A stretch of 64,000 bases of DNA, from NCBI GenBank assembly GCA_030446625.1, contig JAUJMY010000003.1, forward strand, positions 124,001 to 188,000, read 5' to 3'. A model generated the notes under the pieces. That model saw nothing but the letters and a program-made list of their open reading frames with translations. It had not been told where the DNA came from and did not search any database. The DNA is from Gaiellaceae bacterium. Lineage in GTDB: Bacteria; Actinomycetota; Thermoleophilia; Gaiellales; Gaiellaceae. A program made the translations under genes and the position numbers. Positions 12,800-41,855 of this stretch are shown here, in pieces (within the stretch, counting starts at the first letter, position 1; the number at the start of each line of letters is the position of its first letter).

Positions 12800-12811
12800 A
12801 AAAAAGCGACG

Positions 12812-12830
12812 CCCCACCCATCGGGTGGGG
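12812..12830. terminator. GC-rich hairpin after the operon (possible terminator)
   Basis: A perfect 8-bp stem (CCCCACCC with GGGTGGGG, 3-base loop) begins 13 bases after the stop of the membrane GT-C gene. No T-run follows on the + strand. A run of seven A residues lies just before the hairpin, which on the minus strand would be a T-run six bases after it. It may slow or stop transcription, or act in the minus direction, but it is not a textbook terminator. Confidence 0.4.
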
Positions 12831-12947
12831 AGCTTCCACCCTCCACCCGCCGCTGACGCTACCGCCGAACGACGCGCGCGTCCGTGACGGGAGCGTGCCG
12901 AGTCCGTGCCGATTCGTCCACGGCGGCGCCACTAGGATCGTGTCGCC

Positions 12948-14195
12948 GTGAAGGTCCTGCTCGTGACGATGTACTTCCCGCCCGCGGGCGGCGCGGGGGT
13001 GCAGCGGCCGCTCAAGTTCGCCGCGCAGCTCCCCGCGCTTGGAATCGAGACGCACGTGCTCGCGCCGGACGACCCGAAGTGGATCCACCCGGACCCGGAG
13101 CTCCAGCCGCCGACGCAGGCGTGGATCCACCGCGCGCGCTACGTCGGCCCGGGCGGCCTGAGGCTCGCCGAGGAGCTGCACGGGAAGCAGGGGCTCGAGC
13201 GCGCCTCGACCCTCGCGCGCGTCGCGTTCCGGCGCGCGCTCGTCCCCGACGAGAACGTCACCTGGAACGCGACGGCCATCCCGGCCGCGCTGCGGATCGT
13301 GCGCGACGAGGGGATCGACGTCGTCCTCACGACCTCGCCGCCGAACTCGGTGCACCTGGTCGGGGCGGCGGTCAAGCGGGCGACGGGCGTGAAGTGGGTC
13401 GCGGACCTGCGCGACTCCGTCGTGGCGCACCCGCACCGCCGGTCGGAGCGGCTCGCCGCCCGCGCGAAGGAGAAGACGCAGGACGTGGTCGCGCGCCTCG
13501 TCGCGCGCTCCGCCGACGCGATCGTCGCCGTCTCGGACGCGATCGCGGACGAGGCGCGAGCGTTCGAGCCGCGCGGCCCCGTCCACACGATCGGCAACGG
13601 CTGCGACTTCGACGACTTCGGCGAGCTCCGCTACCGGCGCGCCGACCGCTTCCGGATCACGCACACGGGCAGCTTCTTCGGCAAGCGCGACCCGCGGCCG
13701 TTCCTGGCGGGGCTCGCGGAGTCGCGGCTCGACGTCGTCGCTCGCTTCGTCGGCGACTTCCGCAGCGCCGATCGCGAGTGGGCGGAGTCGCTCGGGCTCG
13801 GCGACCGGCTCGAGCTGCACCCGTACGTCCCGCGGCGCCGGTCGCTCGAGCTCCAGCGCGACTCCGAGGCGCTGCTCCTGCTGATCCCGGACGCCGGCGG
13901 GCGCGGGCGCGGCGTCGTCTCCGGCAAGGTCTTCGAGTACCTCGCGGCGGAGCGGCCGATCCTCGCGGCCGTGCCGCCCGACGGCGCGGCGGCGACGCTG
14001 ATCCGCGAGACGGGGACGGGCGTCGTCGCCCCGCCCGACGACGTGCCCGCGCTCCGTGCGGCGCTCGAGGAGCTCCATGCACGCTGGTCCACCGGCACGC
14101 TCGACGCGACGCGGCTCTCGGAGCGTGACCGGGAGCGGCTCTCGCGCGGGGCGCGCGTCGAAGAGCTCGCGGACGTCCTCCGCGCCGTGGCGTGA
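12948..14195 (+). CDS. GT4-family glycosyltransferase (GT-B fold)
   Basis: This 415-residue GT-B transferase starts MKVLLVTMYFPPAGGAGVQR, the glycine-rich N-terminal loop typical of GT4 enzymes such as WbuB-like amino-sugar transferases. The linker region has TTSPPNSVHLVG and WVADLRDSV. The C-terminal donor domain has ITHTGSFFGKRDP and VSGKVFEYLAAERPILA, the SGKxFEY form used by several GT4 enzymes instead of the plain EX7E motif. Start GTG 12948 follows a 148-base gap, so it heads a new transcription unit with the aminotransferase and methyltransferase downstream. Donor unknown, possibly an amino sugar given the neighbouring aminotransferase. Confidence 0.88.
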   Translation: MKVLLVTMYFPPAGGAGVQRPLKFAAQLPALGIETHVLAPDDPKWIHPDPELQPPTQAWIHRARYVGPGGLRLAEELHGKQGLERASTLARVAFRRALVPDENVTWNATAIPAALRIVRDEGIDVVLTTSPPNSVHLVGAAVKRATGVKWVADLRDSVVAHPHRRSERLAARAKEKTQDVVARLVARSADAIVAVSDAIADEARAFEPRGPVHTIGNGCDFDDFGELRYRRADRFRITHTGSFFGKRDPRPFLAGLAESRLDVVARFVGDFRSADREWAESLGLGDRLELHPYVPRRRSLELQRDSEALLLLIPDAGGRGRGVVSGKVFEYLAAERPILAAVPPDGAAATLIRETGTGVVAPPDDVPALRAALEELHARWSTGTLDATRLSERDRERLSRGARVEELADVLRAVA

Positions 14196-20455: not shown

Positions 20456-20704
20456 GTGGCGCGCCGCCAAGTACTCGTGCAGCTCTCGGACTCGCTCCTG
20501 TCGCTACTCGATCAGCGAGCCGCGTGCGCAGGCATCTCGCGGTCGGAGCTCATCCGGCGCTCGCTCGAGGCGCACCTCGCCGCGGATCGCTCGGCTGCGA
20601 TTGATCGCGCGATCGTCGAGGGATACACCCGCATCCCGTCCGGGCGCCGAGACGCGTGGTCCGTCGCCGCGCTCGACGAGTCGCTTCGGGACGAGCCGTG
20701 GTGA
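20456..20704 (+). CDS. Ribbon-helix-helix (CopG/MazE-like) antitoxin
   Basis: This 82-residue protein has a short N-terminal strand (RRQVLVQLSDSL) followed by two helices with GISRSELIRRSLEAHL, the standard ribbon-helix-helix DNA-binding pattern. The C-terminal tail (GYTRIPSGRRDAWSVAALDESL) is a typical extended toxin-neutralising arm. As dimer it would bind DNA and sequester the toxin encoded next. Start GTG 20456. The stop overlaps the toxin start region (GTGGTGA), so the two are coupled. Together they form a type II toxin-antitoxin module inside the glycan island. Confidence 0.85.
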   Translation: MARRQVLVQLSDSLLSLLDQRAACAGISRSELIRRSLEAHLAADRSAAIDRAIVEGYTRIPSGRRDAWSVAALDESLRDEPW

Positions 20705-21009
20705 CGCGCGGCGAAGTCTGGTGGGTCGAGCGCCCCTCCGGACGCAGGCCGCATCTCGTCCTGACCCGGCAGGCCGCGATTCCCGTCTTGCACTCCGTCC
20801 TCGCCGTGCCGGCGACGCGAACGATCCGCGGGATTCCGACTGAGGTGAAGCTTGGGCCTGAAGACGGGATGCCGGCTCACTGCGTGCTCACGCTCGACAA
20901 CGTCGTGACGGTGAGGCAGGCGTACTTCGTCGATCGCATCACGCGGCTTCGTCCGGACAAGATGGACGAGGTCTGCGCGACGCTCGCGATCGCCGCCGGC
21001 TGCGGCTGA
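20701..21009 (+). CDS. MazF/PemK-family endoribonuclease toxin
   Basis: This 102-residue protein matches the MazF/PemK SH3-like barrel: TRGEVWWVERP at the start, RRPHLVLTRQAA, LAVPATRTIRGIPTEV and AHCVLTLDNVVTVRQ. In the family, the Arg of the N-terminal region and the Thr after the central strand help cleave single-stranded mRNA. The N-terminal motif is the usual GEVWW rather than the GDIVW seen in some enzymes. Start is GTG 20701 or the adjacent GTG 20698, overlapping the antitoxin stop. It could stabilise the island or serve stress response. The downstream GT4 gene starts 6 bases later and may be co-transcribed. Confidence 0.88.
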   Translation: MTRGEVWWVERPSGRRPHLVLTRQAAIPVLHSVLAVPATRTIRGIPTEVKLGPEDGMPAHCVLTLDNVVTVRQAYFVDRITRLRPDKMDEVCATLAIAAGCG

Positions 21010-27474: not shown

Positions 27475-28605
27475 ATGAGCCTCATTCCCAACCGCGGCCC
27501 CGGCCTGCAGATCGAGAGCGTCGAGATCGGCGATGCGACCGACTGCTACGTGATCGCGGAGATCGGCCACAACCACCAGGGCGATCTCGAGCAGGCGAAG
27601 ACGCTCTTCACCGAGGCGCAGCGGTGCGGCGCGCAGGCGGTGAAGATCCAGAAGCGCGACAACCGCTCCCTCTACACGGCGGAGTTCTTCAACAAGCCGT
27701 ACGACAACGAGAACAGCTTCGGGCCGACGTACGGTGCGCACCGCGAGGCGCTCGAGTTCGGCCGCGACGAATACCTCGAGCTGAAGCGCCATGCGGCCGA
27801 GCTCGGAATCGCCTTCTTCGCGACCGCCTTCGACTTCGCGAGCACGGACTTCCTCGTGGATCTCGACATGCCCGCGTACAAGATCGCGTCCGGCGACCTG
27901 ACGAACACGCCGCTGCTGCGCTACGTCGCGCAGACGGGGAGACCGGTGATCTTCTCGACCGGCGCAGGGACCCTCGACGACGTGCGGCGGGCGTACGACA
28001 CGGTGTCCGAGATCAACCCGCAGGTGGCGATCCTCCAGTGCACAGCGGGGTATCCCGCAGAGTGGGAGGAGCTGGATCTGCGTGTGATCGACACGTACCG
28101 GCAGCTGTTCCCGGACACCGTCGTCGGCTTCTCGGGCCACGACAACGGCATCGCGATGGCCGTCGCCGCGTACGTCCTCGGCGCCCGGATCGTGGAGAAG
28201 CACTTCACCCTCAACCGCGCTGCCAAGGGGACGGACCACCGTTTCTCGCTCGAGCCGCAGGGACTGCGCAAGATGGTGCGCGATCTCCAGCGCACGCAAA
28301 CGGCGCTGGGAGACGGCACGAAGACGATGTACCCGAGCGAGGTCGAGCCGGCGCGGAAGATGGGCAAGAAGCTCGTCGCCGCGCGCGATCTGCCCGCGGG
28401 CCACACGCTGTCGAACGGGGACATCGCGCTCAAGTCGCCGGGCGACGGCCTGCCGCCCTACGAGCTCGAGCGGGTCGTCGGTCGCATGTTGCGCCATCCC
28501 GTGCAGGTCGACACCGCGCTGACGTTCGAGCATCTCGAGGAGCTCCTCCCGACGGAGATCGTCGGCGTCTCCGGAGCCGGCGCGATGCGCCAGCTCGGCG
28601 ACTGA
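27475..28605 (+). CDS. NeuB-family ulosonic-acid synthase (sialic-acid synthase-like)
   Basis: This 376-residue enzyme should condense phosphoenolpyruvate with an aldose to give a nonulosonic acid. The TIM barrel (1-290) has VIAEIGHNHQGD, VKIQKRDNRSLYT, FFATAFDFAST, YKIASGDLTNTPLL, LQCTAGYPA, GFSGHDNGI and VEKHFTLNRAAKGTDH. These include the metal- and PEP-binding residues known in NeuB. A SAF/antifreeze-like C-terminal domain (about 310-365, KKLVAARDLPAGHTL) closes the partner active site in the dimer. Start ATG 27475. It heads a five-gene run (SDR, aldehyde dehydrogenase, CMP-sugar synthetase, transketolase). No hydrolysing 2-epimerase (NeuC) is nearby, so the acceptor sugar may be unusual. 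Confidence 0.92.
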   Translation: MSLIPNRGPGLQIESVEIGDATDCYVIAEIGHNHQGDLEQAKTLFTEAQRCGAQAVKIQKRDNRSLYTAEFFNKPYDNENSFGPTYGAHREALEFGRDEYLELKRHAAELGIAFFATAFDFASTDFLVDLDMPAYKIASGDLTNTPLLRYVAQTGRPVIFSTGAGTLDDVRRAYDTVSEINPQVAILQCTAGYPAEWEELDLRVIDTYRQLFPDTVVGFSGHDNGIAMAVAAYVLGARIVEKHFTLNRAAKGTDHRFSLEPQGLRKMVRDLQRTQTALGDGTKTMYPSEVEPARKMGKKLVAARDLPAGHTLSNGDIALKSPGDGLPPYELERVVGRMLRHPVQVDTALTFEHLEELLPTEIVGVSGAGAMRQLGD

Positions 28606-28638
28606 CGACGCGGCTCGCCGGCTTTGCCCGCGGGAACG

Positions 28639-29424
28639 ATGCGACAGGTCTCCGAAACGGCACTCGCGACCGTCGACGCGCCACTCCGCGGCCGCATCGC
28701 GATCGTCACGGGCGCGCTCGGCAAGCTCGGGCCCGTGTGGGCGGAGGCGCTCGCGGAGGCCGGAGCGACCGTCGTGCCCGTCGACCTTCGCGACGGTGAC
28801 GGCGTGCTCTGCGCCGACGTGACCGACCGCGCAGCGCTCGACGAGGCGCGCGAGCGCGTCGAAGCCGAGCACGGCACGCCGCACGTCCTCGTGAACAACG
28901 CCGGCGTCGACCAGCCGCCGGCGGCGGCCGCGACGACGTACGCCGTGGAGGACGTGCCCCTCGAGGACTTCCGGCGGACGCTCGACGTCAACCTGGCCGG
29001 AACGTTCAACGCGATCCAGGTCTTCGGGTCGGCGATGCGTGACGCCGGCCGCGGCTCGATCGTCAACATCGGCTCCCTCTATGCGTCGATCGCGGCAGAG
29101 CCGCGCTTCTACGACCACATGGACGCCGACCCGCCGTTCCTGAAGCCCGCCGCGTACGGCGCGTCGAAGGCGGGCGTCGTCAACCTGACCCGCTACTTCG
29201 CGCGGCTCTGGGGGCCGAGCGGCGTACGCGTGAACGCGCTCTCGCCCGGCGGCGTGCGCGGCGGGCAGGATCCCGACTTCCTGCGCAAGTACAACGAGCG
29301 CGTGCCGCTAGGCCGGATGGCGGAGGCTGACGACCTCGTCGGGCCGCTGCTGTTCCTCGCGTCCGATGCGTCGCGCTACGTCACCGGGCACGAGCTGCGC
29401 GTCGACGGAGGATTCACGGCATGA
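28639..29424 (+). CDS. Short-chain dehydrogenase/reductase (PtmA-like)
   Basis: This 261-residue classical SDR has VTGALGKLGPVWAEAL (dinucleotide loop), VNNAGVD, NIGSLYASI (catalytic Ser) and YGASKAGVVNLTRYF (catalytic Tyr and Lys). The SLYAS and long loop before the Tyr recall PtmA-type reductases that sit next to NeuB-like synthases in flagellin-glycan loci. Start is ATG 28639; TTG 28624 is an alternative five codons upstream. It ends in an ATGA overlap with the aldehyde dehydrogenase gene. Oxidation or reduction of the ulosonic acid or its precursor is the likely job. Substrate unknown. Confidence 0.88.
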   Translation: MRQVSETALATVDAPLRGRIAIVTGALGKLGPVWAEALAEAGATVVPVDLRDGDGVLCADVTDRAALDEARERVEAEHGTPHVLVNNAGVDQPPAAAATTYAVEDVPLEDFRRTLDVNLAGTFNAIQVFGSAMRDAGRGSIVNIGSLYASIAAEPRFYDHMDADPPFLKPAAYGASKAGVVNLTRYFARLWGPSGVRVNALSPGGVRGGQDPDFLRKYNERVPLGRMAEADDLVGPLLFLASDASRYVTGHELRVDGGFTA

Positions 29425-30899
29425 CGATCGTCGCACCGCCCGAGACGGAGACGGTGTCGAACGTCATCGGCGGCGAGGAGCGCCCGGCCGCGAGCGGCGA
29501 GACGTTCGAGAAGCTCAGCCCTGCCACCGGGCGCGTGATCAGCGTCGTCGCACGCTCCGACGCGCGCGACGTCGACGCTGCCGTGACTGCGGCAGTGGCG
29601 GCGCAGCCCGAGTGGGCGCGGACCACGGTCGCCGAGCGCGGAGCACGCCTCCGGCGGATCGCGCAGCTCCTCGAGCGCGACCGGGAGGAGCTCGCCGCGA
29701 TCGTCCACGTCGAGACGGGCAAGTCGCCGAAGGACGCGCGCGGCGAGACGGACGCCGCGATCGAGATGGGCTACTTCGTCGCCGGCGAGGGCCGCCGCTT
29801 CTACGGCCGGACGACGACGAGCGCGGTCGCGAACCGGCAGGCGATGACGGTCCGACAGCCGCTCGGCGTCGCCGGGCTGATCATCGCGGCGAACACGCCG
29901 ATCGCCAACGTCGCGTGGAAGGTGTTCCCCTCTCTCCTCTGCGGGAACGCGGCCGTCCTGAAGGCGTCCGAGGACACGCCGCAGACGGCGCTCGCCTTCG
30001 CGCGGCTCGCGGCCGAAGCGCGTCTGCCCCCCGGCGTCCTCAACGTGGTGCACGGCTTTGGCAAGGAGGCCGGACAGCCGCTCGTCGAGGACGAACGCGT
30101 CGCCGTCGTGAGCTTCACGGGATCGACCGCCGTCGGGCGCATGATCGCGCGCGTCGCAGGCGAGCGCTTGGCCAAGGTCTGCCTCGAGCTGGGCGGCAAG
30201 AATCCGCTGATCGTCTGCGACGACGCAGACCTCGAGCGTGCCGCGGAGGCTGCGGCGCTTTCCGCCTTCTCGAACGCCGGGCAGCGGTGCGCCGCGGGCA
30301 GCAGGATCCTCGTCTTCGACTCGGTCTATGACCGCTTCAAGGAGCTCCTCGTCGAGCGCGCGAACGCGCAGCGCGTCGGCGCTGGTGAAGACGACGACTT
30401 CGGCGCTGTGATCAACGAGCGCCAGCTCCAGTCGATGCTCGACGCGATCGACCGCGCCCGCGACAACGGCGCGACCGTCGTCACCGGCGGCACGAGGCTG
30501 ACGGGGCCGGAGCACGACGGCGGCTTCTACCTCGCACCGACGCTCGTGGAGGACGCGGCACTCGAGGACGAGATCTCCTGCACGGAGCTGTTCGGGCCGA
30601 TCGCGACGCTGCACCGCGTGTCGTCGTTCGAGGAGGCGCTCGACGCCGCGCACGCGACGCCGTACGGGCTTACGGCCGCGATCTGGACGGCGAGCATCCA
30701 CCGTGCTCAGGAGTTCGTCGCACGCGTGCAGAGCGGGGTCGCGTCCGTGAACGGCCCGACCTACGGCTCGGAGCCGCACATGCCGTTCGGCGGCTTGCGC
30801 AACTCCGGCACGGGCTGGCGCGAGGCCGGGACGGAGGCGCTCGACGTGTATTCCGACTGGAAGACGGTGTACCTGAACCATGATCCCGCGGCCCTCTAG
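29421..30899 (+). CDS. NAD(P)-dependent aldehyde dehydrogenase
   Basis: This 492-residue protein is a complete aldehyde dehydrogenase. It shows IIAANTPIANVAWKVFPSLL, VSFTGSTAVGR, the catalytic Glu in LELGGKNPLIV and the catalytic Cys in SNAGQRCAAGSR. TELFGPIATL and PFGGLRNSGTG are the usual C-terminal motifs. It would oxidise an aldehyde to an acid. Its ATGA overlap with the SDR and 20-base overlap with the CMP-sugar synthetase place it firmly in the NeuB-type operon. Together they suggest a sugar aldehyde intermediate. An aldehyde dehydrogenase is not part of the standard sialic, legionaminic or pseudaminic pathways. Confidence 0.92.
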   Translation: MTIVAPPETETVSNVIGGEERPAASGETFEKLSPATGRVISVVARSDARDVDAAVTAAVAAQPEWARTTVAERGARLRRIAQLLERDREELAAIVHVETGKSPKDARGETDAAIEMGYFVAGEGRRFYGRTTTSAVANRQAMTVRQPLGVAGLIIAANTPIANVAWKVFPSLLCGNAAVLKASEDTPQTALAFARLAAEARLPPGVLNVVHGFGKEAGQPLVEDERVAVVSFTGSTAVGRMIARVAGERLAKVCLELGGKNPLIVCDDADLERAAEAAALSAFSNAGQRCAAGSRILVFDSVYDRFKELLVERANAQRVGAGEDDDFGAVINERQLQSMLDAIDRARDNGATVVTGGTRLTGPEHDGGFYLAPTLVEDAALEDEISCTELFGPIATLHRVSSFEEALDAAHATPYGLTAAIWTASIHRAQEFVARVQSGVASVNGPTYGSEPHMPFGGLRNSGTGWREAGTEALDVYSDWKTVYLNHDPAAL

Positions 30900-31617
30900 C
30901 GTCGCGCTCGTTCCGGCGCGGGCCGGGTCGTTGCGCGTGCCGCGGAAGAACGTCCTTGCGCTCGCCGGCCATCCGCTGATCGCATACACGATCGCGGCGG
31001 CGCGCGAGAGCGGCGTCTTCGAGGCGGTGGTCGTCTCGACGGACGCGCCGCAGATCGCCGAGATCGCGAGTCACTACGGCGCGGACGTCTGCGAGCTGCG
31101 GCCCGCGGAGCTCGCGACGGCGACCTCGCCGGACATCGAGTGGGTGCTGCACGCGATGGACGGTCGCGAGGAGGATCTGTTTGCGATCTTGCGGCCGACG
31201 AGCCCGTTCCGCACCGGCGCGACGATCGTGCGGGCCGTCGACCGTCTGCTCACGCTCGGGGAGGACGCCGACTCGATACGCGCCGTCGAGCTCGTCCGGC
31301 AGCATCCGGCGAAGATGTGGGAGCTGGAAGGAGATCTGATGCGGCCGCTGCTGCCACAGCCGGCGGACGGGACGCCGCTGCACTCGCGCCAGTACCAGGC
31401 CCTGCCGCCCGTCTACGTCCAGAACTCGAGCCTCGAGATCGCTTGGACACGGGTGCTGCGCGACGACGGCACGATCTCCGGCCGGAGACTCGCTCCGTTC
31501 TTCACCGTGGGCCACGAGGGCTTCACGATCGACTATCCGGAAGACGTCGAGCGCGCGGAGGCGCTGGTGGCGCGGGGCGAGGCCGAGCTTCCGCGCGTCC
31601 GCGAGACGGTCGCGTGA
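30880..31617 (+). CDS. CMP-sugar synthetase (acylneuraminate cytidylyltransferase-like)
   Basis: This 245-residue enzyme starts SVALVPARAGSLRVPRKNV, a version of the NeuA/KdsB P-loop-like CTP site, and continues with LALAGHPLIAYTIAAA, VVVSTDAPQIAEIA and FAILRPTSPFRTGATIV. It should join the ulosonic acid made by the NeuB-like enzyme to CMP. The final part keeps the IDYPEDVERAE stretch common to the family. Start ATG 30880 lies inside the aldehyde dehydrogenase gene (20-base overlap). It ends in a GTGA overlap with the transketolase gene. Sugar specificity not predictable from sequence. Confidence 0.9.
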   Translation: MIPRPSSVALVPARAGSLRVPRKNVLALAGHPLIAYTIAAARESGVFEAVVVSTDAPQIAEIASHYGADVCELRPAELATATSPDIEWVLHAMDGREEDLFAILRPTSPFRTGATIVRAVDRLLTLGEDADSIRAVELVRQHPAKMWELEGDLMRPLLPQPADGTPLHSRQYQALPPVYVQNSSLEIAWTRVLRDDGTISGRRLAPFFTVGHEGFTIDYPEDVERAEALVARGEAELPRVRETVA

Positions 31618-33497
31618 GCCTGCGCTACGTCCCGTACCACGAGCTGGAACGGATCCGCTCGCTCGACGCCGACCCGCGCGAGCGCGCCGCCGCGTTCGCC
31701 GATGCGTGCCGCCTGAACGTCCTCTACATGGTGATGCGCGCGGGATCGGGACACATCGGGACGAGCTTCAGCTGCATCGACATCCTCTCGTGGCTCCACC
31801 TCGAGGTGCTCGGCGACGACGACCGCTACTTCTCGTCGAAGGGACACGATGCACCCGGCCTCTACTCCGTGCTGATCGGGCTCGGCCGGATCGAGTTCGA
31901 CAAGCTGCACGCGCTGCGCCGGCTCGGCGGCCTCCCGGGGCACCCGGACGTCCTGGCGACGCCGCAGGTGTTGACCAACACCGGGTCGCTCGGAATGGGC
32001 GTCTCGAAGGCGCGCGGGTTCGTGCTCGCCGACCGCCGGCTCGGCCGGTCGGGACGCGTCTTCGTCCTCACCGGCGACGGCGAGCTCCAAGAGGGGCAGT
32101 TCTGGGAGTCGCTCCAGCCGACCGCGAACCGGGGCATCGACGAGCTGACGGTCATCGTCGACCACAACAAGCTCCAGTCCGACACGTGGGTCGAGCGCGT
32201 CTCGCCGCTCGGCGATCTGGCCGCGAAGGTGCGTGCGTTCGGGTGGCAGGTCGGCCGTTGCGACGGGAACGACGTGCACGCGCTCGCAGCGGAGCTCGAC
32301 CGGCTCGCGAGCGAAGGAGAGGGCGCTCCGAAGCTCCTGATCGCGGACACGCGCAAGGGCGCAGGCGTGCACCGGATGGAGCCGCACGACGTCCCGGACG
32401 AGGAGACGTCGCTGTACGGCTTCCACTCCGGCGCGCCCGTCGCCGACGATTACGAGGCCGGCGTGGAGGAGATCGCCGCGCGACTCGCGCGCCGGCTCGG
32501 TCGCGACGTTGAGCTGGTCGAGGAGCCGCTCCCGCGGCGAACGCCGCCCGAGCTCCCGCAGCGCCTGATCGAGGCGTACTCGCGCGCGATCCTCGACCTC
32601 GGCGAGCGCGAACCGAGGCTTGTCGCGCTGGACGCCGACCTCAGGCTCGACACCGGCCTCGTCCGCTTCCGCGACACCTATCCCGAGCGCTTCTTCGAGT
32701 GCGGCATCGCCGAGCAAGACATGGTCTCGATGGCCGGCGCGATGGCGCTCGGCGGCCTGCTGCCCGTGTGCCACTCGTTCGCGTGCTTCGTGACCCCGCG
32801 CGCGAACGAGCAGATCTTCAACAACGCGACCGAGGGCACGAAGGTGATCTACCACGGGTCGCTGGTCGGGATCGTCCCGGGCGGGCCGGGGCACTCGCAC
32901 CAGATGATCCGCGACATCGCGCTGATGGCATCGGTGCCGGGAATGGCGGCGATCGAGCCGTACTGCGACGCCGAGGTGGCGGCCGCGCTCGAGTGGGCGG
33001 TGCGCGACGCGGAAGGGCCCGTCTATCTCCGCCTCGTCTCGCCTCCGTGGGAGCTCGGCTTCGATCCACCGGTGACGCAGCTGGAGCAGGGCCGAGGTAC
33101 GGTGCTCCGAGAGGGGGACGACGGCGTCTTCGTCTGCACGGGGCCGGTGCTCGTCTCGCAGGCGTGGGCGGCGTGCGAGCTGCTCGCCGGCGAGGGCGTG
33201 CGGTTCGGGCTCGCCGCGCTCCCGTGGCTGAAGGACGTCGACGGGGCGTGGCTCGCGGAGGTCGCGGCCGGAGCGCCGATCGTGTGCCTGGACAACCACT
33301 ACGTCGTCGGCGGCCAAGGCGACGCGGTGCTGTCGGCGCTCGCCGCCGCCGCTCCCGAGTCGGCGGCACAGGTGCGGAAGTTCGGCGTCGACCGCGTCCC
33401 GGTGTGCGGCGCCAACGACGAGGTCCTGCGCGCGCACGGGCTCGACGCCGAGAGCGTCGCCGCGCGGGCGCTGTCGATGCTCCATTCGCGCGTGTGA
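31614..33497 (+). CDS. Full-length transketolase in the ulosonic-acid operon
   Basis: This 627-residue protein carries all transketolase domains in one chain. The TPP domain has SGHIGTSFSCIDIL, SSKGHDAPGLYS and GDGELQEGQFWES ending at VDHNK (the GDG-to-N TPP motif). The pyrimidine domain begins near 315 with FECGIAEQDMVSMAGAMAL, whose Glu activates TPP. The C-terminal domain follows from about 500. The family moves two-carbon ketol units between sugars. Start GTG 31614 overlaps the CMP-sugar synthetase stop. Placement inside a NeuB operon rather than a pentose-phosphate context argues for a dedicated role, such as making or lengthening the unusual sugar backbone. Confidence 0.92.
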   Translation: MSLRYVPYHELERIRSLDADPRERAAAFADACRLNVLYMVMRAGSGHIGTSFSCIDILSWLHLEVLGDDDRYFSSKGHDAPGLYSVLIGLGRIEFDKLHALRRLGGLPGHPDVLATPQVLTNTGSLGMGVSKARGFVLADRRLGRSGRVFVLTGDGELQEGQFWESLQPTANRGIDELTVIVDHNKLQSDTWVERVSPLGDLAAKVRAFGWQVGRCDGNDVHALAAELDRLASEGEGAPKLLIADTRKGAGVHRMEPHDVPDEETSLYGFHSGAPVADDYEAGVEEIAARLARRLGRDVELVEEPLPRRTPPELPQRLIEAYSRAILDLGEREPRLVALDADLRLDTGLVRFRDTYPERFFECGIAEQDMVSMAGAMALGGLLPVCHSFACFVTPRANEQIFNNATEGTKVIYHGSLVGIVPGGPGHSHQMIRDIALMASVPGMAAIEPYCDAEVAAALEWAVRDAEGPVYLRLVSPPWELGFDPPVTQLEQGRGTVLREGDDGVFVCTGPVLVSQAWAACELLAGEGVRFGLAALPWLKDVDGAWLAEVAAGAPIVCLDNHYVVGGQGDAVLSALAAAAPESAAQVRKFGVDRVPVCGANDEVLRAHGLDAESVAARALSMLHSRV

Positions 33498-33522: not shown

Positions 33523-34404
33523 GTGACGCCGGCAACCGCTCGCCACCGGCCGTCGCGCGAGGCGCTGCGCCACACCGCTCTGGAGGTACGGCGCGTCGTC
33601 GGCGCGCCGGTGCGCCTGGCCCGCCAGCTCGGCCGGCTCGATCACCGTCTCGGCACGACGCTCGACGTCGGTCGCCTCGACTACCCGCATGACGACATCT
33701 ACCTCCGCCTCGATTCCCGCTACGCACCTTGGCGTCTCCGCTCCTGCGCGAAGGAGCCCTGGACGGTTGCGTGGATCGAGCGCTGGCTCGAGCCGGGCGA
33801 GACGCTGTACGACGTCGGCGCGAACGTCGGCGCGTACGCGCTCGTCGCCGCCAAGGTGGCGCCCGACGCGCGTGTGGTCGCGTTCGAGCCGGGCTACGCG
33901 AGCTTCGCCTCGCTGTGCGAGAACATCCTGCTGAACGACGCCGCAGAGACGGTCCACCCGCTCCCAGTCGCCCTCGGCGCCTCGACCTGCCTCACGCTCT
34001 TCAACTACCGTGAGCTCGACGCCGGAGCGGCGCTGCACAGTCTGGGCGACGACGGCGGCTTCGTCGCAGCGTACCGCCAGCCCGTGCTCTCGTATCGCCT
34101 GGACGACCTCGTGGCCACGTTCGGCCTTCGGCCGCCCAACCACGTCAAGCTCGACGTGGACGGAGCCGAGTCGGACGTCCTCGAGGGGGCGCGGGACCTG
34201 CTGACATCCGAGACCTTGCGATCGCTGATGGTTGAAGTCGACGGACCTGCGGAGACCGCGATTGTCGGACGGCTCGCGGCCGCCGGCCTGGAGCTCGTGG
34301 AGCGGTACGAGCCACGGCAGACGCGTGTCGGCCATTCTCCTACCCATTGGTCGGGGTTGTTCGCGCGGCGCCATGTCCAGCGACCGACGGCGGAACGACG
34401 ATGA
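33523..34404 (+). CDS. FkbM-family methyltransferase
   Basis: This 293-residue protein has an N-terminal helical leader (1-75) and an FkbM-type SAM domain: ETLYDVGANVGAYALVAA (motif I), VVAFEPGYASFASL, and HVKLDVDGAESDVLEGA, the diagnostic K-D-V-[DE]-G-[AE]-E stretch. FkbM enzymes usually methylate a hydroxyl group on a sugar or other small molecule. Start GTG 33523, 25 bases after the transketolase, and an ATGA overlap with the next gene suggest it completes this transcription unit. It may methylate the sugar made by the upstream pathway or another unit of the glycan. Confidence 0.85.
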   Translation: MTPATARHRPSREALRHTALEVRRVVGAPVRLARQLGRLDHRLGTTLDVGRLDYPHDDIYLRLDSRYAPWRLRSCAKEPWTVAWIERWLEPGETLYDVGANVGAYALVAAKVAPDARVVAFEPGYASFASLCENILLNDAAETVHPLPVALGASTCLTLFNYRELDAGAALHSLGDDGGFVAAYRQPVLSYRLDDLVATFGLRPPNHVKLDVDGAESDVLEGARDLLTSETLRSLMVEVDGPAETAIVGRLAAAGLELVERYEPRQTRVGHSPTHWSGLFARRHVQRPTAERR

Positions 34405-35843
34405 AGGTCGTCTTCTTCATGTCGCACGGCGTCTTCGCGAGGAACTTCGAGTGGACGCTTCGCCTGCTCGCCGAGCGCGGCCACGACCTCGTCGTCGCGC
34501 TCGACGCACCCACGGACCAGCGTGGCCGCAGCGTGGACGAGCCGCTCGCGTCGATCGCGGCCGCGCACCCGAACGTCCGCGTCGTCGCGTCTCCGCGGCC
34601 GCGGCCGCGGCGTCGGCCCTCCTCGCTCGCCGGCGTGCTCGCCCGCCGCTGGCTCGACTACCTCCGGTATCTCGAGCCGCCGTACGACGACGTCGCGGCA
34701 CTGCGCGCAAGGGCACGCGCCGCCGCGGTCGGGTCGAGCCTCGTGCCGGAGACGGTGCTGCGCCGGTCCTCCATCCGGCGCGGCCTGAGGCGCGCGTTCA
34801 CGCTGGCGGAGCGGCGCCTGCCGCTACCGCGGGAGGTACTCGCCTTCCTCGCGTCGGAGCGGCCCTGCGTCGTGCTCGTGACGCCGGTCGTCGATCTCGG
34901 CTCACCGCAGACGGAGTACCTGCGCGCGGCGCACCGGTGTCGCATCCCGACGCTGGTGCCGGTTGCGAGCTGGGACAACTTGACCGTCAAGGGCGCCCTG
35001 CACGAGCTGCCCAACCGGATCGCCGTCTGGAACGAGACACAGCGACGCGAGGCGGTCGAGCTTCACGGCCTCCCGCGCGACCGGATCGTCGTTACCGGTG
35101 CGGTGGCGTACGACCACTGGTTCGACTGGACGCCTAGTCGCGACCGCGCGTCGTTCTGCAGCCGCGTCGGTCTCGACCCGCGACGCCCGTACGTCCTCTA
35201 TCTCTGCTCCTCTCCCTTCGCCGCACCGGACGAAGCGGCGCACATCGTCGCGTGGGCGTCCGCGCTCCGAGCATCGACCAGGCTCCGGGACGTCCAGGCG
35301 CTCGTTCGCGAGCATCCGCAGAGCACGTTGGAAAGCGACGGACTCCACGAGCTCGCGAGGCTCGACGGTGTCGCCGTCTACCCGCCCGGCGGTCGAAGCC
35401 CCGTCGACGCCGCCTCGCGGGCCGACTACTTCGACTCGATCCACCACAGCGCGGCCGTCACGGGCGTGAACACGAGCGGGTTCATCGAGAGCTCGATCGT
35501 CGGCCGGCCGGTCCACGCTCTCCTCTCGCGCCGCTACCGCGGTAGCCAGGAGCAGACGCTCCACTTCCACTACCTGCTCGAGGCGAACGGCGGCCCCGTG
35601 CGCGTCGCCGCCTCGTTCGGCGAGCACGAGCGGCAGCTGGAAGAGGCGCTCGCGACGCCGCCCGAGGCGACGCGCGGGCGCGCGCTCCCGTTCCTCGAGC
35701 GCTTCGTGCGGCCGTTCGGGCTCGGCGAGCCGGCGTCGCCGCGCCTGGTGGCGGCGGTCGAGGAGCTGGCGTCCGGCCGCCGGACCGCGACGATTCCGGA
35801 GGGGCACGTCTCGACGAGCCACGCCGCGGCGCGCGCGCCGTAG
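34401..35843 (+). CDS. GT-B-like glycosyltransferase of an uncharacterised family (SWDNLT type)
   Basis: This 480-residue protein starts MKVVFFMSHGVFARNFEWTL, a GT-B-style first strand and loop. Its central block has VASWDNLTVKG, WNETQRREAVELHG, VTGAVAYDHWFDW and YLCSSPFA. The C-terminal half has REHPQ and HHSAAVTGVNTSGFIES, which resemble the donor-side motifs of CDP-glycerol/UDP-GlcNAc-epimerase-like GT-B proteins. Two paralogues (35937 and 44980) share the same order, so this is a real family. I cannot name a substrate. It overlaps the FkbM gene by an ATGA junction. Confidence 0.65.
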   Translation: MKVVFFMSHGVFARNFEWTLRLLAERGHDLVVALDAPTDQRGRSVDEPLASIAAAHPNVRVVASPRPRPRRRPSSLAGVLARRWLDYLRYLEPPYDDVAALRARARAAAVGSSLVPETVLRRSSIRRGLRRAFTLAERRLPLPREVLAFLASERPCVVLVTPVVDLGSPQTEYLRAAHRCRIPTLVPVASWDNLTVKGALHELPNRIAVWNETQRREAVELHGLPRDRIVVTGAVAYDHWFDWTPSRDRASFCSRVGLDPRRPYVLYLCSSPFAAPDEAAHIVAWASALRASTRLRDVQALVREHPQSTLESDGLHELARLDGVAVYPPGGRSPVDAASRADYFDSIHHSAAVTGVNTSGFIESSIVGRPVHALLSRRYRGSQEQTLHFHYLLEANGGPVRVAASFGEHERQLEEALATPPEATRGRALPFLERFVRPFGLGEPASPRLVAAVEELASGRRTATIPEGHVSTSHAAARAP

Positions 35844-35936: not shown

Positions 35937-37622
35937 GTGTCGCCGGAGAATTTCGAGCTCGGCGACCGCGCGGGTCGCGAAGGGCGTCTGCGCATCCTCT
36001 TCTTCATGCTCGCGATCAACTTCGATCGCGTCTTCGAGTGCTTCCTGCGCGAGCTCCTGGAGCGGGGGCACGAGGTACGCGTCCTGCTCGACCGCCAGAA
36101 GACCGGGCTGCCAGCCGGCGAGACCGCGCTCTTCGACGCGCTCCGCGCGGAGTTCCCCAACTTCTCGTACGCGCTGCTCGGGCGCCGCCGGACGCCGTGG
36201 CTTCGGGCGGCGACCGCGGTTCGGCACGCGATCGACTACCTCCGCTACCTCGAGCCGGAGTTCCGGGACGCCCACGCGCTGCGCGAGCGCGCCCGCTTGC
36301 GGGCCTCACGCCTCGTACGGGCTCCCCTGCGGCTTCCGCTCCTCCGCGCGCCGAGCGGCCGGTGGGCGGTGGGCCGGCTCCTCCGACGAGTCGAGGCAGC
36401 GCTGCCGATCCCCGCGAAGCACCGGAAGCTCGTCGCCGGTCACTCGCCCGACGTCGTGCTCGTCTCGCCGCTCGTCGGGCTGGGCTCGTGGCAGGGGGAG
36501 CACCTCCGCGTCGCGGCGCAGCTCGGCATCCCGAGCGTCCTCGTCGTCGCGAGCTGGGACAACCTCACCAACAAGGGAATCATCCGCGACGTGCCGACCT
36601 GGACGATCGTCTGGAACGCCGCGCAGGTCGACGAGGCGACGCGGCTACACGGGTTGGCCCCCGAGCGCGTCGTCGCGACCGGCGCGCACACGTTCGATCA
36701 CTGGTTCGGCTGGTCCCCGAGCACGACACGCGCCGAGTTCGCCGGGAGGCTCGGATTCGATCCCGCGCGGCCGATCCTTCTCTACGTCGGCTCGTCGAGG
36801 TTCATCGCCGAGGACGAGGCGGAGTTCGTGTCCGAGTGGGTGCGACGGCTGCGCGCGAGCGGCGATCGGCGGCTCGCGGAGGCGGGCGTGATCGTGCGGC
36901 CGCATCCGCAGAACGCCGGCCAGTGGCGCGAGTTCGACGTCTCGGAGCTCGGAAGCACCGTGGTGTGGCCGCGCGCCGGCGCCGCGCCGACCGACGCGGA
37001 GCGGAAGGCGGACTACTGGGACTCGCTGCACCACTCGAGCGCCGTGATCGGGATCAACACGAGCGCGCTGATCGAGGCGGCGATCGCCCGCCGGCCGGTG
37101 CTCACGCTCGCCGACGAGCGGTTCCGGCAGACGCAGGAAGGGACCCTGCACTTCGCGCACCTCGCGGGCGCCGAGGGCGACGGGGGCGTGCTGACAGTGG
37201 CGCGCTCCTGGGGCGAGCACCTCTCCCACCTCGTCGCCGCGCTCGACCGGCCCGACGTCTTCGCGAGGCGGATCGAGGGCTTTCTCGAGAGCTTCGTGCG
37301 GCCCGACGGTCTCGACCGCGCCGCGGCGCCGCAGGCGGCCGATATCGTCGAGCGGGCAGCGGCGACCGCCGTCGAGCGCGTTCCGGCGCCGGCCGCGGCC
37401 TCGGTCGCGCTCCGCGCGCTCACGCCGATCGTCGTGGCGGCGGCGGTCGCGCACGATCTCCTGCGCTTTCCCGCGCGGTGCTCGCGGTGGCTGCTCGCGC
37501 GGCGCGCGGAAGCTCAGGTAGGCCGGCGACCGAGCTCGGCCGGGCCTCGGCGCGACGTCGTCACGCCGGACGCAGCCACTCTTCCCCCGGCACGGCGCGC
37601 ATCCCGTGAGCCGCTACGCTGA
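35937..37622 (+). CDS. GT-B-like glycosyltransferase, paralogue of 34401 (SWDNLT type)
   Basis: This 561-residue protein is similar over its length to the preceding gene: LRILFFMLAINFDRVFECFL, VASWDNLTNKGI, WNAAQVDEATRLHG, TGAHTFDHWFGW, YVGSSRFIAEDE, VRPHPQ and HHSSAVIGINTSALIEAAI. An extra basic C-terminal tail (about 490-561) has a hydrophobic amphipathic stretch and Arg-rich ending, perhaps for membrane binding. Start GTG 35937 after a 93-base gap. The tandem position of two divergent paralogues suggests sequential transfers on one glycan. The substrate is unknown. Confidence 0.65.
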   Translation: MSPENFELGDRAGREGRLRILFFMLAINFDRVFECFLRELLERGHEVRVLLDRQKTGLPAGETALFDALRAEFPNFSYALLGRRRTPWLRAATAVRHAIDYLRYLEPEFRDAHALRERARLRASRLVRAPLRLPLLRAPSGRWAVGRLLRRVEAALPIPAKHRKLVAGHSPDVVLVSPLVGLGSWQGEHLRVAAQLGIPSVLVVASWDNLTNKGIIRDVPTWTIVWNAAQVDEATRLHGLAPERVVATGAHTFDHWFGWSPSTTRAEFAGRLGFDPARPILLYVGSSRFIAEDEAEFVSEWVRRLRASGDRRLAEAGVIVRPHPQNAGQWREFDVSELGSTVVWPRAGAAPTDAERKADYWDSLHHSSAVIGINTSALIEAAIARRPVLTLADERFRQTQEGTLHFAHLAGAEGDGGVLTVARSWGEHLSHLVAALDRPDVFARRIEGFLESFVRPDGLDRAAAPQAADIVERAAATAVERVPAPAAASVALRALTPIVVAAAVAHDLLRFPARCSRWLLARRAEAQVGRRPSSAGPRRDVVTPDAATLPPARRASREPLR

Positions 37623-37661: not shown

Positions 37662-38606
37662 GTGAGTTCCACGCCGGAGACGATCGCGCCCCCCGTGAGG
37701 CCGACGCCTGCCGCCCCGCCGGCGGGCGCGGTTCAAATCATCACGCGCAGGCAGACGGTCGCCGAGTCCCTCGTCGAGGCGTGGCGGTGCAGGCACGTCC
37801 TCTGGGCTCTCACGACCACGTCTTTCACCGGGATGTTCGACCAGGTGCTCCTCGGCCCGTTCTGGATCCCGATCACCATCGCCGTGCAGACGCTCGGTCC
37901 CGCCCTGATCTTCGGCGCCGTGCTCGACGCGCCGACCCCGAGCGGAATCCCCTACCTGCTGTTCTTCCTGGTGGGGATGACGGTGTGGAGCACCTTCCGG
38001 CGGAGCCTCAAGTTCACGATTCGGAGCTTCCACCAGTTCAGGCGGCTGACGCGCGAGGTGTCGTTTCCGCTCCTCCTCGTGCCGCTCGCGGCGATCGCGC
38101 AGCTGGCGCTCGAGATCTTCATCCACTTCGTGTTCATCGCCGGCGTCGTCTGGTACTTCTTCTACACCGACGGCGTCGTCCACGTCACCCTCGGCCCGCA
38201 GCTCCTGCTCGCCCCGGTCGCGCTGCTCTGGGCGCTGACGCTCGCGGCGGGGATTGCGTTCTTCACCGCACCGGTCTTCATGCGCGCGCGCGACATCCGG
38301 ATCATCGTGAGGCTGGCGCTGCCGTTCTGGATGTTCGTCACCCCGATCATCTATCCGCTCAGTCACCTCCAGGGCGGGGCCCGGACGGCGGCCCAGGTCA
38401 ACCCGATGACCGCGATCACCGAGCTCTTCAAGTTCGCGGTGCTCGACAGGGCCGTGGTCGAGCCGGTCGCGCTCGTGTGGAGCGGCTTCGTGACGGCGGC
38501 CGTCTTCCTGAGCGGGATCTGGTTCCTCAGCACCGTGGGAACCCGCCTGGTCGGCGTCCAGTCGCTCGCGGACGAGGACGAGGACGATGGCTCGGTTCTC
38601 GTCTAG
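37662..38606 (+). CDS. ABC-2-type polysaccharide exporter permease, no ATPase nearby
   Basis: This 314-residue permease has a proline-rich soluble leader (1-30), about six membrane helices and the ABC-2 landmarks VLLGPFWIPITIAVQTLG, FRRLTREVSFPLLLVP and FWMFVTPIIYPLSHL, as in Wzm/TagG transporters that export lipid-linked glycans. An acidic tail (DEDEDDG) ends the protein. No ATP-binding partner (Wzt/TagH-like, with Walker A and LSGGQ motifs) is encoded in the window. It either pairs with a distant subunit or has lost its partner. Start GTG 37662. It overlaps the next gene by 20 bases. Confidence 0.85.
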   Translation: MSSTPETIAPPVRPTPAAPPAGAVQIITRRQTVAESLVEAWRCRHVLWALTTTSFTGMFDQVLLGPFWIPITIAVQTLGPALIFGAVLDAPTPSGIPYLLFFLVGMTVWSTFRRSLKFTIRSFHQFRRLTREVSFPLLLVPLAAIAQLALEIFIHFVFIAGVVWYFFYTDGVVHVTLGPQLLLAPVALLWALTLAAGIAFFTAPVFMRARDIRIIVRLALPFWMFVTPIIYPLSHLQGGARTAAQVNPMTAITELFKFAVLDRAVVEPVALVWSGFVTAAVFLSGIWFLSTVGTRLVGVQSLADEDEDDGSVLV

Positions 38607-39420: not shown

Positions 39421-40584
39421 TCAGCCGCTGTTCCCGCGGCGCGAGACGACCTTCGCCGCGCGGGCGAGGGCCTTGAGCGGCCGCCGGCGAAGCTCTCGCT
39501 CGAGCGCGAGCTTCTCGCGCGTGGCGGCCAGCTTCTCGCTCAGCACCCGCACCCGTCTGCGCAGCTTCTCGAGCTCGCGCGCGTCCGGGTGCACCTCGGC
39601 GGCGCGGATCGCGCGGGCGAGCTCGCCGCGGAGGTCGGCGGCGGGCCCGGGGAGGTCGGGCCAGGCGAGGCGGGCGCCGGGGTCGGGTTCCGGGTGGGGA
39701 TGGTTGGGCGTGCGGCCGGCGCGAAGCGCGGCCAGCCGTTCCTCGAGCCGCTCGTCGACGACGAGCCGTCCGGCGCGGATCCCCTCCGCGAGCTCCTCGT
39801 CGTCGAGGAGGACCTTGTCGTAGAGCTGGCGCAGCCGCCCCTGACGGTACTCCTCGTACGGTTGCCGCTCGGGCACGGCCGTCCCGGGTGGGGGCGGCTG
39901 CTCGCCTTCCTTGCGGTGTTGCAGCCAGCCCTGGTACTCGGGGTCGAACTGCCGGCCGCGGCTTGCGACCTTGCGCTCGTAGTCGGCGTAGCTGCGCATC
40001 GGGAAGTGGAGGCACTCGATCGGCGTCCACGCCGCCGGGACGGTGGCCAGGTCGCTGTCGACCAGGTTGTGGTTGCCGCCGACGACCCGCACGTCCGGGC
40101 GGGCCCGGTGGGCGATGTTCTTGAACCGGGAGCTCGTCCCCGGCTTCGTCGTGTACGTCTCGCGGACGGTCATCCGCTCGTAGAAGGCGCCGTCCTCGTC
40201 GGGGCGGGGGAGGAAGTTGTAGACGGGGATGTCGAGGACCCCGTACTCGGGCGGGACCGCCCGGAAGACGTCGGCGAGCGAGCCGCGGCGGGCGAGATAG
40301 AACTCGTCCGCGTCGCCGTTGATCACCCAGTCGGCACCGTGCTCCGTGCAGGCCAGGCGGGCCATCCGCGTCACCCACTCCGCCTGCAGGAAGTCGGGGC
40401 TCTCCTCGCGTAACAGGACGACCCGCCCGCCGGCGGCGTACCGCTGCACGGTCTCGACCGTCCCGTCGCGCGACTGGTGGTCGGTGACGATCACCACGTC
40501 GACCCCATGGCTCAGGTGATGCTCGAGATTCGCCCCGATCACCTCCCCCTCGTCACGCACCAGCAACGTCAGCGCGAGCTTCAT
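39421..40584 (-). CDS. GT2-like glycosyltransferase, near-identical tandem copy (downstream)
   Basis: This 387-residue protein starts at ATG 40584 (KLALTLLVRDEGEVIGANL). It has VTDHQSRDGTVETV, VINGDADEFYLARRG at the DxD site and PIECLHFPMRSYADYERK, all of the GT2 type with a Glyco_tranf_2_4-like core, and ends in a charged helix. Residues 1 to about 330 are nearly identical to the upstream gene (40581-41855); the two DNA copies differ at only one base in about 987 that I can see. The C-terminal helices differ. The two genes overlap by ATGA, so this is a tandem duplication in one operon. Confidence 0.8.
   Translation of the reverse strand: MKLALTLLVRDEGEVIGANLEHHLSHGVDVVIVTDHQSRDGTVETVQRYAAGGRVVLLREESPDFLQAEWVTRMARLACTEHGADWVINGDADEFYLARRGSLADVFRAVPPEYGVLDIPVYNFLPRPDEDGAFYERMTVRETYTTKPGTSSRFKNIAHRARPDVRVVGGNHNLVDSDLATVPAAWTPIECLHFPMRSYADYERKVASRGRQFDPEYQGWLQHRKEGEQPPPPGTAVPERQPYEEYRQGRLRQLYDKVLLDDEELAEGIRAGRLVVDERLEERLAALRAGRTPNHPHPEPDPGARLAWPDLPGPAADLRGELARAIRAAEVHPDARELEKLRRRVRVLSEKLAATREKLALERELRRRPLKALARAAKVVSRRGNSG
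39592..40578 (-). repeat. Tandem duplication unit, downstream copy (about 987 bp)
   Basis: This stretch matches 40863-41849 base for base, at an offset of 1271, apart from a C here at 39624 where the other copy has G at 40895. It covers most of the two GT2 genes but not their C-terminal helices. No insertion-sequence ends or transposase flank the copies, so unequal crossover or gene conversion explains it best. Confidence 0.9.
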
Positions 40585-41855
40585 CCGTTCCCTTCGCGCC
40601 TCGCGGCGCGCCGCGAGACGGCGCTCGCGGCCCGCGCGAGGGCTCGCATCGGGCGCGGCTCCGCTTCTCGCGTCCGCGCGAGCTTCGCCCGCGCCTCGTC
40701 CAGCTTCTCTCGGGTGGCGGCGAGCTTGCGGTCCTGCGCGGCCCGCCGCTCGCGCGCCTCGGCGAGCTTCTCGCGCGTGGCGGCCACCTTCTCGCGCTCG
40801 GCGGCCAGCTTCTCGCTCAGTACGCGCTCGCGCCGGCGCAGCTTCTCGAGCTCGCGTGCGTGCACCTCGGCGGCGCGGATCGCGCGGGCGAGCTGGCCGC
40901 GGAGGTCGGCGGCGGGCCCGGGGAGGTCGGGCCAGGCGAGGCGGGCGCCGGGGTCGGGTTCCGGGTGGGGATGGTTGGGCGTGCGGCCGGCGCGAAGCGC
41001 GGCCAGCCGTTCCTCGAGCCGCTCGTCGACGACGAGCCGTCCGGCGCGGATCCCCTCCGCGAGCTCCTCGTCGTCGAGGAGGACCTTGTCGTAGAGCTGG
41101 CGCAGCCGCCCCTGACGGTACTCCTCGTACGGTTGCCGCTCGGGCACGGCCGTCCCGGGTGGGGGCGGCTGCTCGCCTTCCTTGCGGTGTTGCAGCCAGC
41201 CCTGGTACTCGGGGTCGAACTGCCGGCCGCGGCTTGCGACCTTGCGCTCGTAGTCGGCGTAGCTGCGCATCGGGAAGTGGAGGCACTCGATCGGCGTCCA
41301 CGCCGCCGGGACGGTGGCCAGGTCGCTGTCGACCAGGTTGTGGTTGCCGCCGACGACCCGCACGTCCGGGCGGGCCCGGTGGGCGATGTTCTTGAACCGG
41401 GAGCTCGTCCCCGGCTTCGTCGTGTACGTCTCGCGGACGGTCATCCGCTCGTAGAAGGCGCCGTCCTCGTCGGGGCGGGGGAGGAAGTTGTAGACGGGGA
41501 TGTCGAGGACCCCGTACTCGGGCGGGACCGCCCGGAAGACGTCGGCGAGCGAGCCGCGGCGGGCGAGATAGAACTCGTCCGCGTCGCCGTTGATCACCCA
41601 GTCGGCACCGTGCTCCGTGCAGGCCAGGCGGGCCATCCGCGTCACCCACTCCGCCTGCAGGAAGTCGGGGCTCTCCTCGCGTAACAGGACGACCCGCCCG
41701 CCGGCGGCGTACCGCTGCACGGTCTCGACCGTCCCGTCGCGCGACTGGTGGTCGGTGACGATCACCACGTCGACCCCATGGCTCAGGTGATGCTCGAGAT
41801 TCGCCCCGATCACCTCCCCCTCGTCACGCACCAGCAACGTCAGCGCGAGTCTCAT
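40581..41855 (-). CDS. GT2-like glycosyltransferase, near-identical tandem copy (upstream)
   Basis: This 424-residue protein starts at ATG 41855 (RLALTLLVRDEGEVIGANL) and shares the GT2 core of its neighbour: VTDHQSRDGTVETV, NGDADEFY and RYAAGGRVVLLREESPDF. Its C-terminal part (about 325-420) is a longer coiled coil with repeated REKLAEARE/REKLDEARA-type units, absent from the downstream copy. It starts in an ATGA overlap with the GT32 gene upstream (41852) and ends in an ATGA overlap with the downstream copy. Core identity combined with distinct tails suggests the tails choose partners or location, but this is inference. Confidence 0.8.
   Translation of the reverse strand: MRLALTLLVRDEGEVIGANLEHHLSHGVDVVIVTDHQSRDGTVETVQRYAAGGRVVLLREESPDFLQAEWVTRMARLACTEHGADWVINGDADEFYLARRGSLADVFRAVPPEYGVLDIPVYNFLPRPDEDGAFYERMTVRETYTTKPGTSSRFKNIAHRARPDVRVVGGNHNLVDSDLATVPAAWTPIECLHFPMRSYADYERKVASRGRQFDPEYQGWLQHRKEGEQPPPPGTAVPERQPYEEYRQGRLRQLYDKVLLDDEELAEGIRAGRLVVDERLEERLAALRAGRTPNHPHPEPDPGARLAWPDLPGPAADLRGQLARAIRAAEVHARELEKLRRRERVLSEKLAAEREKVAATREKLAEARERRAAQDRKLAATREKLDEARAKLARTREAEPRPMRALARAASAVSRRAARREGNG
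40863..41849 (-). repeat. Tandem duplication unit, upstream copy (about 987 bp)
   Basis: Partner of 39592-40578. The identity ends abruptly near the start codons (one copy continues CTTCAT, the other TCTCAT) and at the C-terminal coil, which is the pattern left by a recent duplication or by conversion that keeps the ends distinct. Confidence 0.9.

Follow-up and report, generated by a model that had tools for sequence, protein, structure and literature searches.

In the sialic (NeuBCA), legionaminic and pseudaminic acid pathways, a synthase with the NeuB fold and its phosphoenolpyruvate (PEP) and metal residues acts together with activation of the product by cytidine monophosphate (CMP). In the pathway for 2-keto-3-deoxynononic acid (Kdn) of Bacteroides thetaiotaomicron and Prymnesium parvum, the NeuB-type product formed from mannose-6-phosphate is Kdn-9-phosphate; the route requires no more than mannose-6-phosphate and PEP, and the phosphatase is regarded as redundant and replaceable (PMC6200933). 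The Kdn capsule of Serratia involves neuA and a neuB with an extra isomerase domain, with transketolase not mentioned, and a paper on the Cobetia capsule names transketolase only in a pathway legend. In the open-access literature, we found no relevant paper linking transketolase with nonulosonic, legionaminic or sialic acid synthesis, although an earlier description elsewhere is possible. Here, we analysed a five-gene cassette in a 64,000-nucleotide stretch (the window) of contig JAUJMY010000003.1 from a Gaiellaceae bacterium, which encodes a NeuB-family synthase, a short-chain dehydrogenase/reductase (SDR), an aldehyde dehydrogenase (ALDH), a CMP-sugar synthetase and a transketolase (TK).

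The cassette shares with the Kdn pathway the NeuB-type synthase, the CMP synthetase and, in many copies, a KdsC-like HAD phosphatase, and neither system needs NeuC or an aminotransferase. However, the cassette contains an SDR, an ALDH and a TK, all three of which are absent from the Kdn pathway (PMC6200933). The NeuB fold, the PEP and metal residues and the CMP activation are common to the cassette and the sialic, legionaminic and pseudaminic acid pathways, but the cassette lacks Arg314 of the synthase, the hydrolysing epimerase and the aminotransferase or acetyltransferase set. Its likeness to the pathway for 3-deoxy-D-manno-oct-2-ulosonic acid (Kdo; KdsA, KdsC and KdsB, with the KpsC/KpsS Kdo transferases) lies in the KdsC-like phosphatase and in a Capsule_synth protein near the TK; the synthase is a NeuB with an SAF domain, not KdsA, and the CMP synthetase scores far below the KdsB cut-offs. 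The TK has the fold domains, thiamine diphosphate site and catalytic residues of the pentose phosphate enzyme, whereas the four sugar-phosphate ligands and Asp424 of the latter are replaced throughout the cassette subfamily.

The cassette is a conserved unit, and its product is very probably a CMP-activated ulosonic acid. We tentatively propose that it is a dedicated pathway to a side-chain-trimmed and oxidised form of such an acid, a chemistry inferred from stereochemistry and gene content.

Conservation of the cassette across phyla

A scan of the contigs of approximately 85,000 genomes with the window TK yielded 307 confirmed relatives. The 80 that were retained are 43–74% identical to the window TK and represent at least a dozen phyla (Actinomycetota, Chloroflexota, Pseudomonadota, Cyanobacteria, Acidobacteria, Planctomycetes, Nitrospirae, Myxococcota, Bdellovibrio-type, Bacteroidetes, Elusimicrobia, Gemmatimonadetes and Patescibacteria). 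The scores against the window TK split sharply: cassette copies reach at least 473 bits, and all others at most 230. The prevailing order among the 80 loci is NeuB–(KdsC-like phosphatase)–SDR–ALDH–CMP synthetase–TK, and because it recurs in dozens of unrelated genomes, the arrangement is far beyond chance. When the window and five further loci were added to give a tally of 86, NeuB was present in 65, the SDR in 67, the ALDH in 58, the CMP synthetase in 64 and the KdsC-like HAD protein in 39; many of the loci with missing genes sit on short contigs. The commonest orders were NeuB–HAD–SDR–ALDH–CMP synthetase–TK with Capsule_synth (12 loci) or without it (9), and NeuB–SDR–ALDH–CMP synthetase–TK as in the window (5). 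These findings support the initial annotation, which had proposed a CMP-activated ulosonic acid made outside the standard pathways with a dedicated TK; the TK is indeed present in the other copies of the operon. The methyl cap for which it had suggested an adjoining FkbM-family gene fared less well, as FkbM occurs in only 19 of the 86 loci and capping is thus not a conserved part of the system.

Relatives of the window's genome also carry the cassette, as does one Streptomyces megaplasmid, the sole close match in a plasmid search. Among 61 related genomes, five NeuBs other than that of the window are 57–71% identical to it, and all share a contig with a cassette TK; in the tested related genomes whose NeuBs are all <40% identical, no cassette TK was detected. 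The cassette TK occurs in 20 of the 399 genomes of the class, a patchy distribution that is expected of an accessory glycan locus. No NeuC, aminotransferase or acetyltransferase set is conserved across the loci, in keeping with a plain hexose phosphate as the substrate.

A Capsule_synth (KpsC/KpsS-type) protein is encoded near the TK in 26 loci (among them L022, at 12000–13718), often directly after it, and the window cassette has no such neighbour. This protein is a candidate transferase for the CMP-sugar. Five loci (L122, L123, L125, L044 and L088, the first three from relatives in the window's own family) contain an enolase-superfamily (MR/MLE) sugar-acid dehydratase and a ketopantoate-reductase-like gene inside the cassette. 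Since enolase-superfamily enzymes require a carboxylate with an alpha-proton, the sugar acid of these variant cassettes likely bears a second carboxylate, and the two additional genes suggest an acid that is further deoxygenated or epimerised.

Residues and family assignments of the cassette enzymes

In the TK subfamily, 85 cassette TKs were aligned with human TK, whose numbering is used here, with seven non-cassette TKs as a contrast. The thiamine diphosphate and catalytic residues H37, H77, H110, D155, N185, H258 and E366 are invariant in all 85. The ligands of the substrate phosphate in transketolase structures (R318, S345, H416 and R474) are all replaced: R318 mostly by I or V (also A, F, P or M), S345 by D in 85 of 85, H416 by L or Y, and R474 mostly by S (also I, P, T or N). 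D424, the reader of the donor hydroxyls, is P in 83 of the 85. In contrast, the seven non-cassette TKs, which include the one of the window's own genome, keep S345 in every case and R318, H416 and R474 in six each. This replacement of four ligands indicates that the substrate is probably not phosphorylated; thus, the cassette TK is probably a transketolase-type thiamine enzyme acting on an unphosphorylated intermediate, and its residues suggest that it may edit the free sugar acid itself. A TK scoring 454.9 bits on contig C23 represents a separate housekeeping enzyme and rules out the window TK as the only one in the genome; a split TK is also present on contig C13.

The window NeuB retains the PEP and metal ligands Lys53, Lys129, Ser213, His215 and His236. 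It scores 293.8 bits against the sialic acid synthase model NnaB (TIGR03569; cut-off, 399.65) and 233.2 bits against the pseudaminic acid synthase model PseI (TIGR03586; cut-off, 340.25). Arg314 (Neisseria meningitidis numbering), which reads the N-acetyl group in the N. meningitidis enzyme, is Ser in the window NeuB and is lost in all 64 cassette NeuBs, and 15 of 19 non-cassette NeuBs have R or K at this position. The closest of four references was the human 9-phosphate synthase (40% identity), a comparison that serves only as a lead; the cassette NeuBs appear closest to synthases of the hexose-6-phosphate type. In the NeuB tree, a branch with a support of 90 separates the window's group (group A) from the references Pse, Nm and SpsE. 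A mostly proteobacterial group B, ∼37% identical to group A, serves the same cassette.

The CMP synthetase has a near-invariant P12-A-R-x-G-S-x-R … K-N motif and scores 110.6 bits against PseF (cut-off, 205.7) and 32–49 bits against the KdsB models (cut-offs of 155 or more). Like NeuB, it falls below the curated NCBIfam cut-offs for sialic, Pse and Kdo enzymes, which speaks for the initial annotation. Several gluconate 5-dehydrogenases are among the many nearest solved relatives of the SDR. The ALDH best matches the NCBIfam models for 2,5-dioxovalerate dehydrogenase and alpha-ketoglutaric semialdehyde dehydrogenase, below cut-off in both cases, and its catalytic Cys290 and Glu256 are near-invariant.

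The KdsC-like HAD phosphatase, which in many cassettes (not in that of the window) lies between NeuB and the SDR, is ∼170 amino acids long. In locus L048, it scores 113 against KdsC (cut-off, 208) and 75.6 against the Kdn-9-phosphate phosphatase model KDN-9-PPhBT (cut-off, 180), far below the latter. In loci L027, L031, L037, L087 and L097, where the KdsC-like protein was not found, a second, unrelated HAD hydrolase (HAD_2) follows the TK and is possibly a replacement phosphatase.

A proposed trimming pathway and its alternatives

The following scheme, whose exact steps are put forward a shade more tentatively than the general pathway, would account for these features. NeuB would join PEP to a hexose-6-phosphate (in the simplest case mannose-6-phosphate) to yield a Kdn-9-phosphate-type acid, which would be dephosphorylated by the cassette's KdsC-like HAD protein where present and, in the window's genome, by another phosphatase. 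The SDR would then oxidise the C8 hydroxyl; in Kdn, the C6–C9 tail is configured like gluconate C3–C6, and gluconate 5-dehydrogenases figure among the nearest solved relatives of the SDR. The resulting 8-keto product would end in HOCH2-CO-CHOH- with a fructose-like (3S,4R) configuration, the pattern of fructose C1–C4, and this is the configuration that transketolase requires of its donor. The TK would cleave the C7–C8 bond and take away the two-carbon unit (C8–C9), leaving the ring with a C7 aldehyde; oxidation of this group by the ALDH, as in a uronic acid, would give a 3-deoxy-hept-2-ulosaric acid (L-arabino if derived from mannose). The nearest curated models of the ALDH act on 2-oxo acids with a terminal aldehyde, in agreement with such a step. 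Finally, the CMP synthetase would activate the ulosaric acid for transfer into a surface glycan. The scheme explains the SDR, TK and ALDH jointly, together with the lost phosphate pocket of the TK, and a product with two carboxylates is also what the ALDH and the MR/MLE dehydratases of the five variant loci would predict. A comparable compound, 3-deoxy-D-lyxo-hept-2-ulosaric acid (Dha) of plant rhamnogalacturonan II and green algae, is likewise a C7 ulosonic acid bearing two carboxylates but would differ in configuration; among the titles and abstracts listed, none connected Dha with such a cassette.

Several observations weigh against this proposal. A DegT aminotransferase and a nucleotide-sugar dehydratase are encoded in the window, 12–22 kb from the cassette, so that an amino sugar is possible as the substrate. 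The human 9-phosphate synthase appears likewise to have no Arg314, and loss of this residue alone is thus compatible with an N-acetyl substrate. The window's genome (a 2.7-Mb assembly of 33 contigs, 93% complete) yielded no KdsC-type phosphatase, and searches of it for two phosphomannose isomerase families were negative, which leaves the supply of mannose-6-phosphate uncertain. The two NeuB groups may reflect either a swap of the synthase or two starting sugars, the latter being the unfavourable case. In approximately nine loci, NeuB, the SDR and the TK occur with no ALDH in the vicinity; in Svornostia abyssi, which has NeuB next to the TK, the ALDH is farther off, still linked to the CMP synthetase ∼17 kb downstream of this pair.

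Alternatively, the product could be Kdn or another known nonulosonic acid, with the SDR, TK and ALDH making or removing a substituent (glycolyl or glyceryl) or clearing glycolaldehyde. Nonulosonic acids often bear acyl groups and the ALDH is not universal, as this explanation would allow; however, no acyltransferase is conserved with the cassette, and the constancy of the TK and SDR is similar to that of NeuB, which renders it unlikely.

The order in which NeuB and the TK act is central to a further alternative. The initial annotation had suggested that ketol transfer builds the carbon backbone; on this view, the TK would split a ketose and supply the aldose that NeuB joins to PEP. The two genes are direct neighbours in loci L019 and L021 and both belong to the constant core, in line with this idea. 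However, the TK has lost its four sugar-phosphate ligands, whereas NeuB is similar to synthases of sugar phosphates and many cassettes include a phosphatase; moreover, the genome already has an ordinary TK, and the SDR and the ALDH would go unexplained. We therefore consider a TK acting before NeuB improbable. The ligand loss, the NeuB resemblance and the phosphatase together indicate that the TK most likely acts after NeuB on the free acid, and that ketol transfer more probably shortens the chain than constructs it; the TK, SDR and ALDH are better explained by trimming and oxidation of the side chain. The oxidation of an aldehyde, also suggested at the outset, retains its support as part of the cassette.

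The TK could also add two carbons, drawing on an unphosphorylated ketol donor such as hydroxypyruvate; an aldehyde or ketone on the ulosonic acid would be extended or branched, yielding a longer or branched sugar. A small free donor would also suit a TK that has lost its phosphate pocket and Asp424, and some loci have no ALDH. Against such an extension, the ALDH present in 58 of the 86 loci would compete for the aldehyde acceptor, and no decarboxylation-specific feature was identified in the TK; its probability is as low as that of a TK preceding NeuB. Lastly, the TK, ALDH and SDR belong to common families, but their placement here by accident as central-metabolism genes is scarcely credible in view of the cross-phylum conservation, the separate housekeeping TK and the subfamily-wide residue changes.

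Under the trimming scheme, it is possible that the cassette represents a widespread, unreported pathway in which a TK trims a sialic-acid-like side chain and an ALDH creates a carboxylate, providing CMP-heptulosaric acids for surface glycans. Our survey of the open-access literature found no TK step on a free sugar acid in such a pathway. If correct, the scheme would add a class of activated sugar to bacterial glycobiology, extend the role of transketolase beyond sugar-phosphate metabolism to the editing of free sugar acids and make a TK with Asp at the Ser345 position a marker gene by which such glycans could be traced in many phyla. The cassette would, in addition, provide an enzymatic route to heptulosaric acids; we found no such route described in the same literature.

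Gene layout and surrounding region

The five cassette genes are full-length and were assigned to families by Pfam and NCBIfam (Table 1). Their coupling, as originally annotated, was confirmed by reading the junctions from the sequence: a gap of 33 bp separates NeuB from the SDR gene, and the following genes overlap by 4 bp (SDR/ALDH), 20 bp (ALDH/CMP synthetase) and 4 bp (CMP synthetase/TK; GTGA). The coupling extends beyond the TK, with 25 bp to the FkbM start and a glycosyltransferase-like gene that begins inside the FkbM stop codon (ATGA, 4-bp overlap). A second gene of the glycosyltransferase group and then an ABC-2 permease gene follow close downstream.

Table 1. Genes of the cassette and its downstream neighbours in the window
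Product	Position	Strand	Family match
NeuB-family synthase (PEP + sugar aldehyde), C-terminal SAF domain	27475..28605	+	Pfam NeuB, 261 bits; SAF, 42 bits
SDR oxidoreductase; proposed to oxidise C8 of the ulosonic acid	28639..29424	+	Pfam adh_short_C2, 151 bits
ALDH; proposed to convert the C7 aldehyde to a carboxylate	29421..30899	+	Pfam Aldedh, 503 bits
CMP-sugar synthetase (CTP transferase), no class given	30880..31617	+	Pfam CTP_transf_3, 72 bits
Cassette-type TK without sugar-phosphate ligands	31614..33497	+	Pfam Transket_pyr, Transketolase_N, Transketolase_C
FkbM-family methyltransferase, accessory	33523..34404	+	Pfam Methyltransf_21; NCBIfam TIGR01444, above cut-off
Putative glycosyltransferase	34401..35843	+	Weak match to BFO_1060-family glycosyltransferase, NCBIfam NF046086, 31 bits, below cut-off
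Second putative glycosyltransferase, same open reading frame cluster as the 34401..35843 gene	35937..37622	+	NF046086, 19.6 bits
ABC-2 transporter permease, likely polysaccharide export	37662..38606	+	Pfam ABC2_membrane, 29.6 bits, above cut-off

Further downstream, a minus-strand glycosyltransferase-like gene is duplicated in tandem (window positions 39493–39873 and 40770–41144). The two copies share a 300-bp stretch that is 98% identical, at a spacing of 1271 bp, and the adjoining open reading frames repeat the same protein. Another repeat of 147 bp was found at positions 42419 and 43354. The polysaccharide region also includes a PemK/MazF-like toxin gene at positions 20656–21009 (Pfam PemK_toxin, 45.5 bits).

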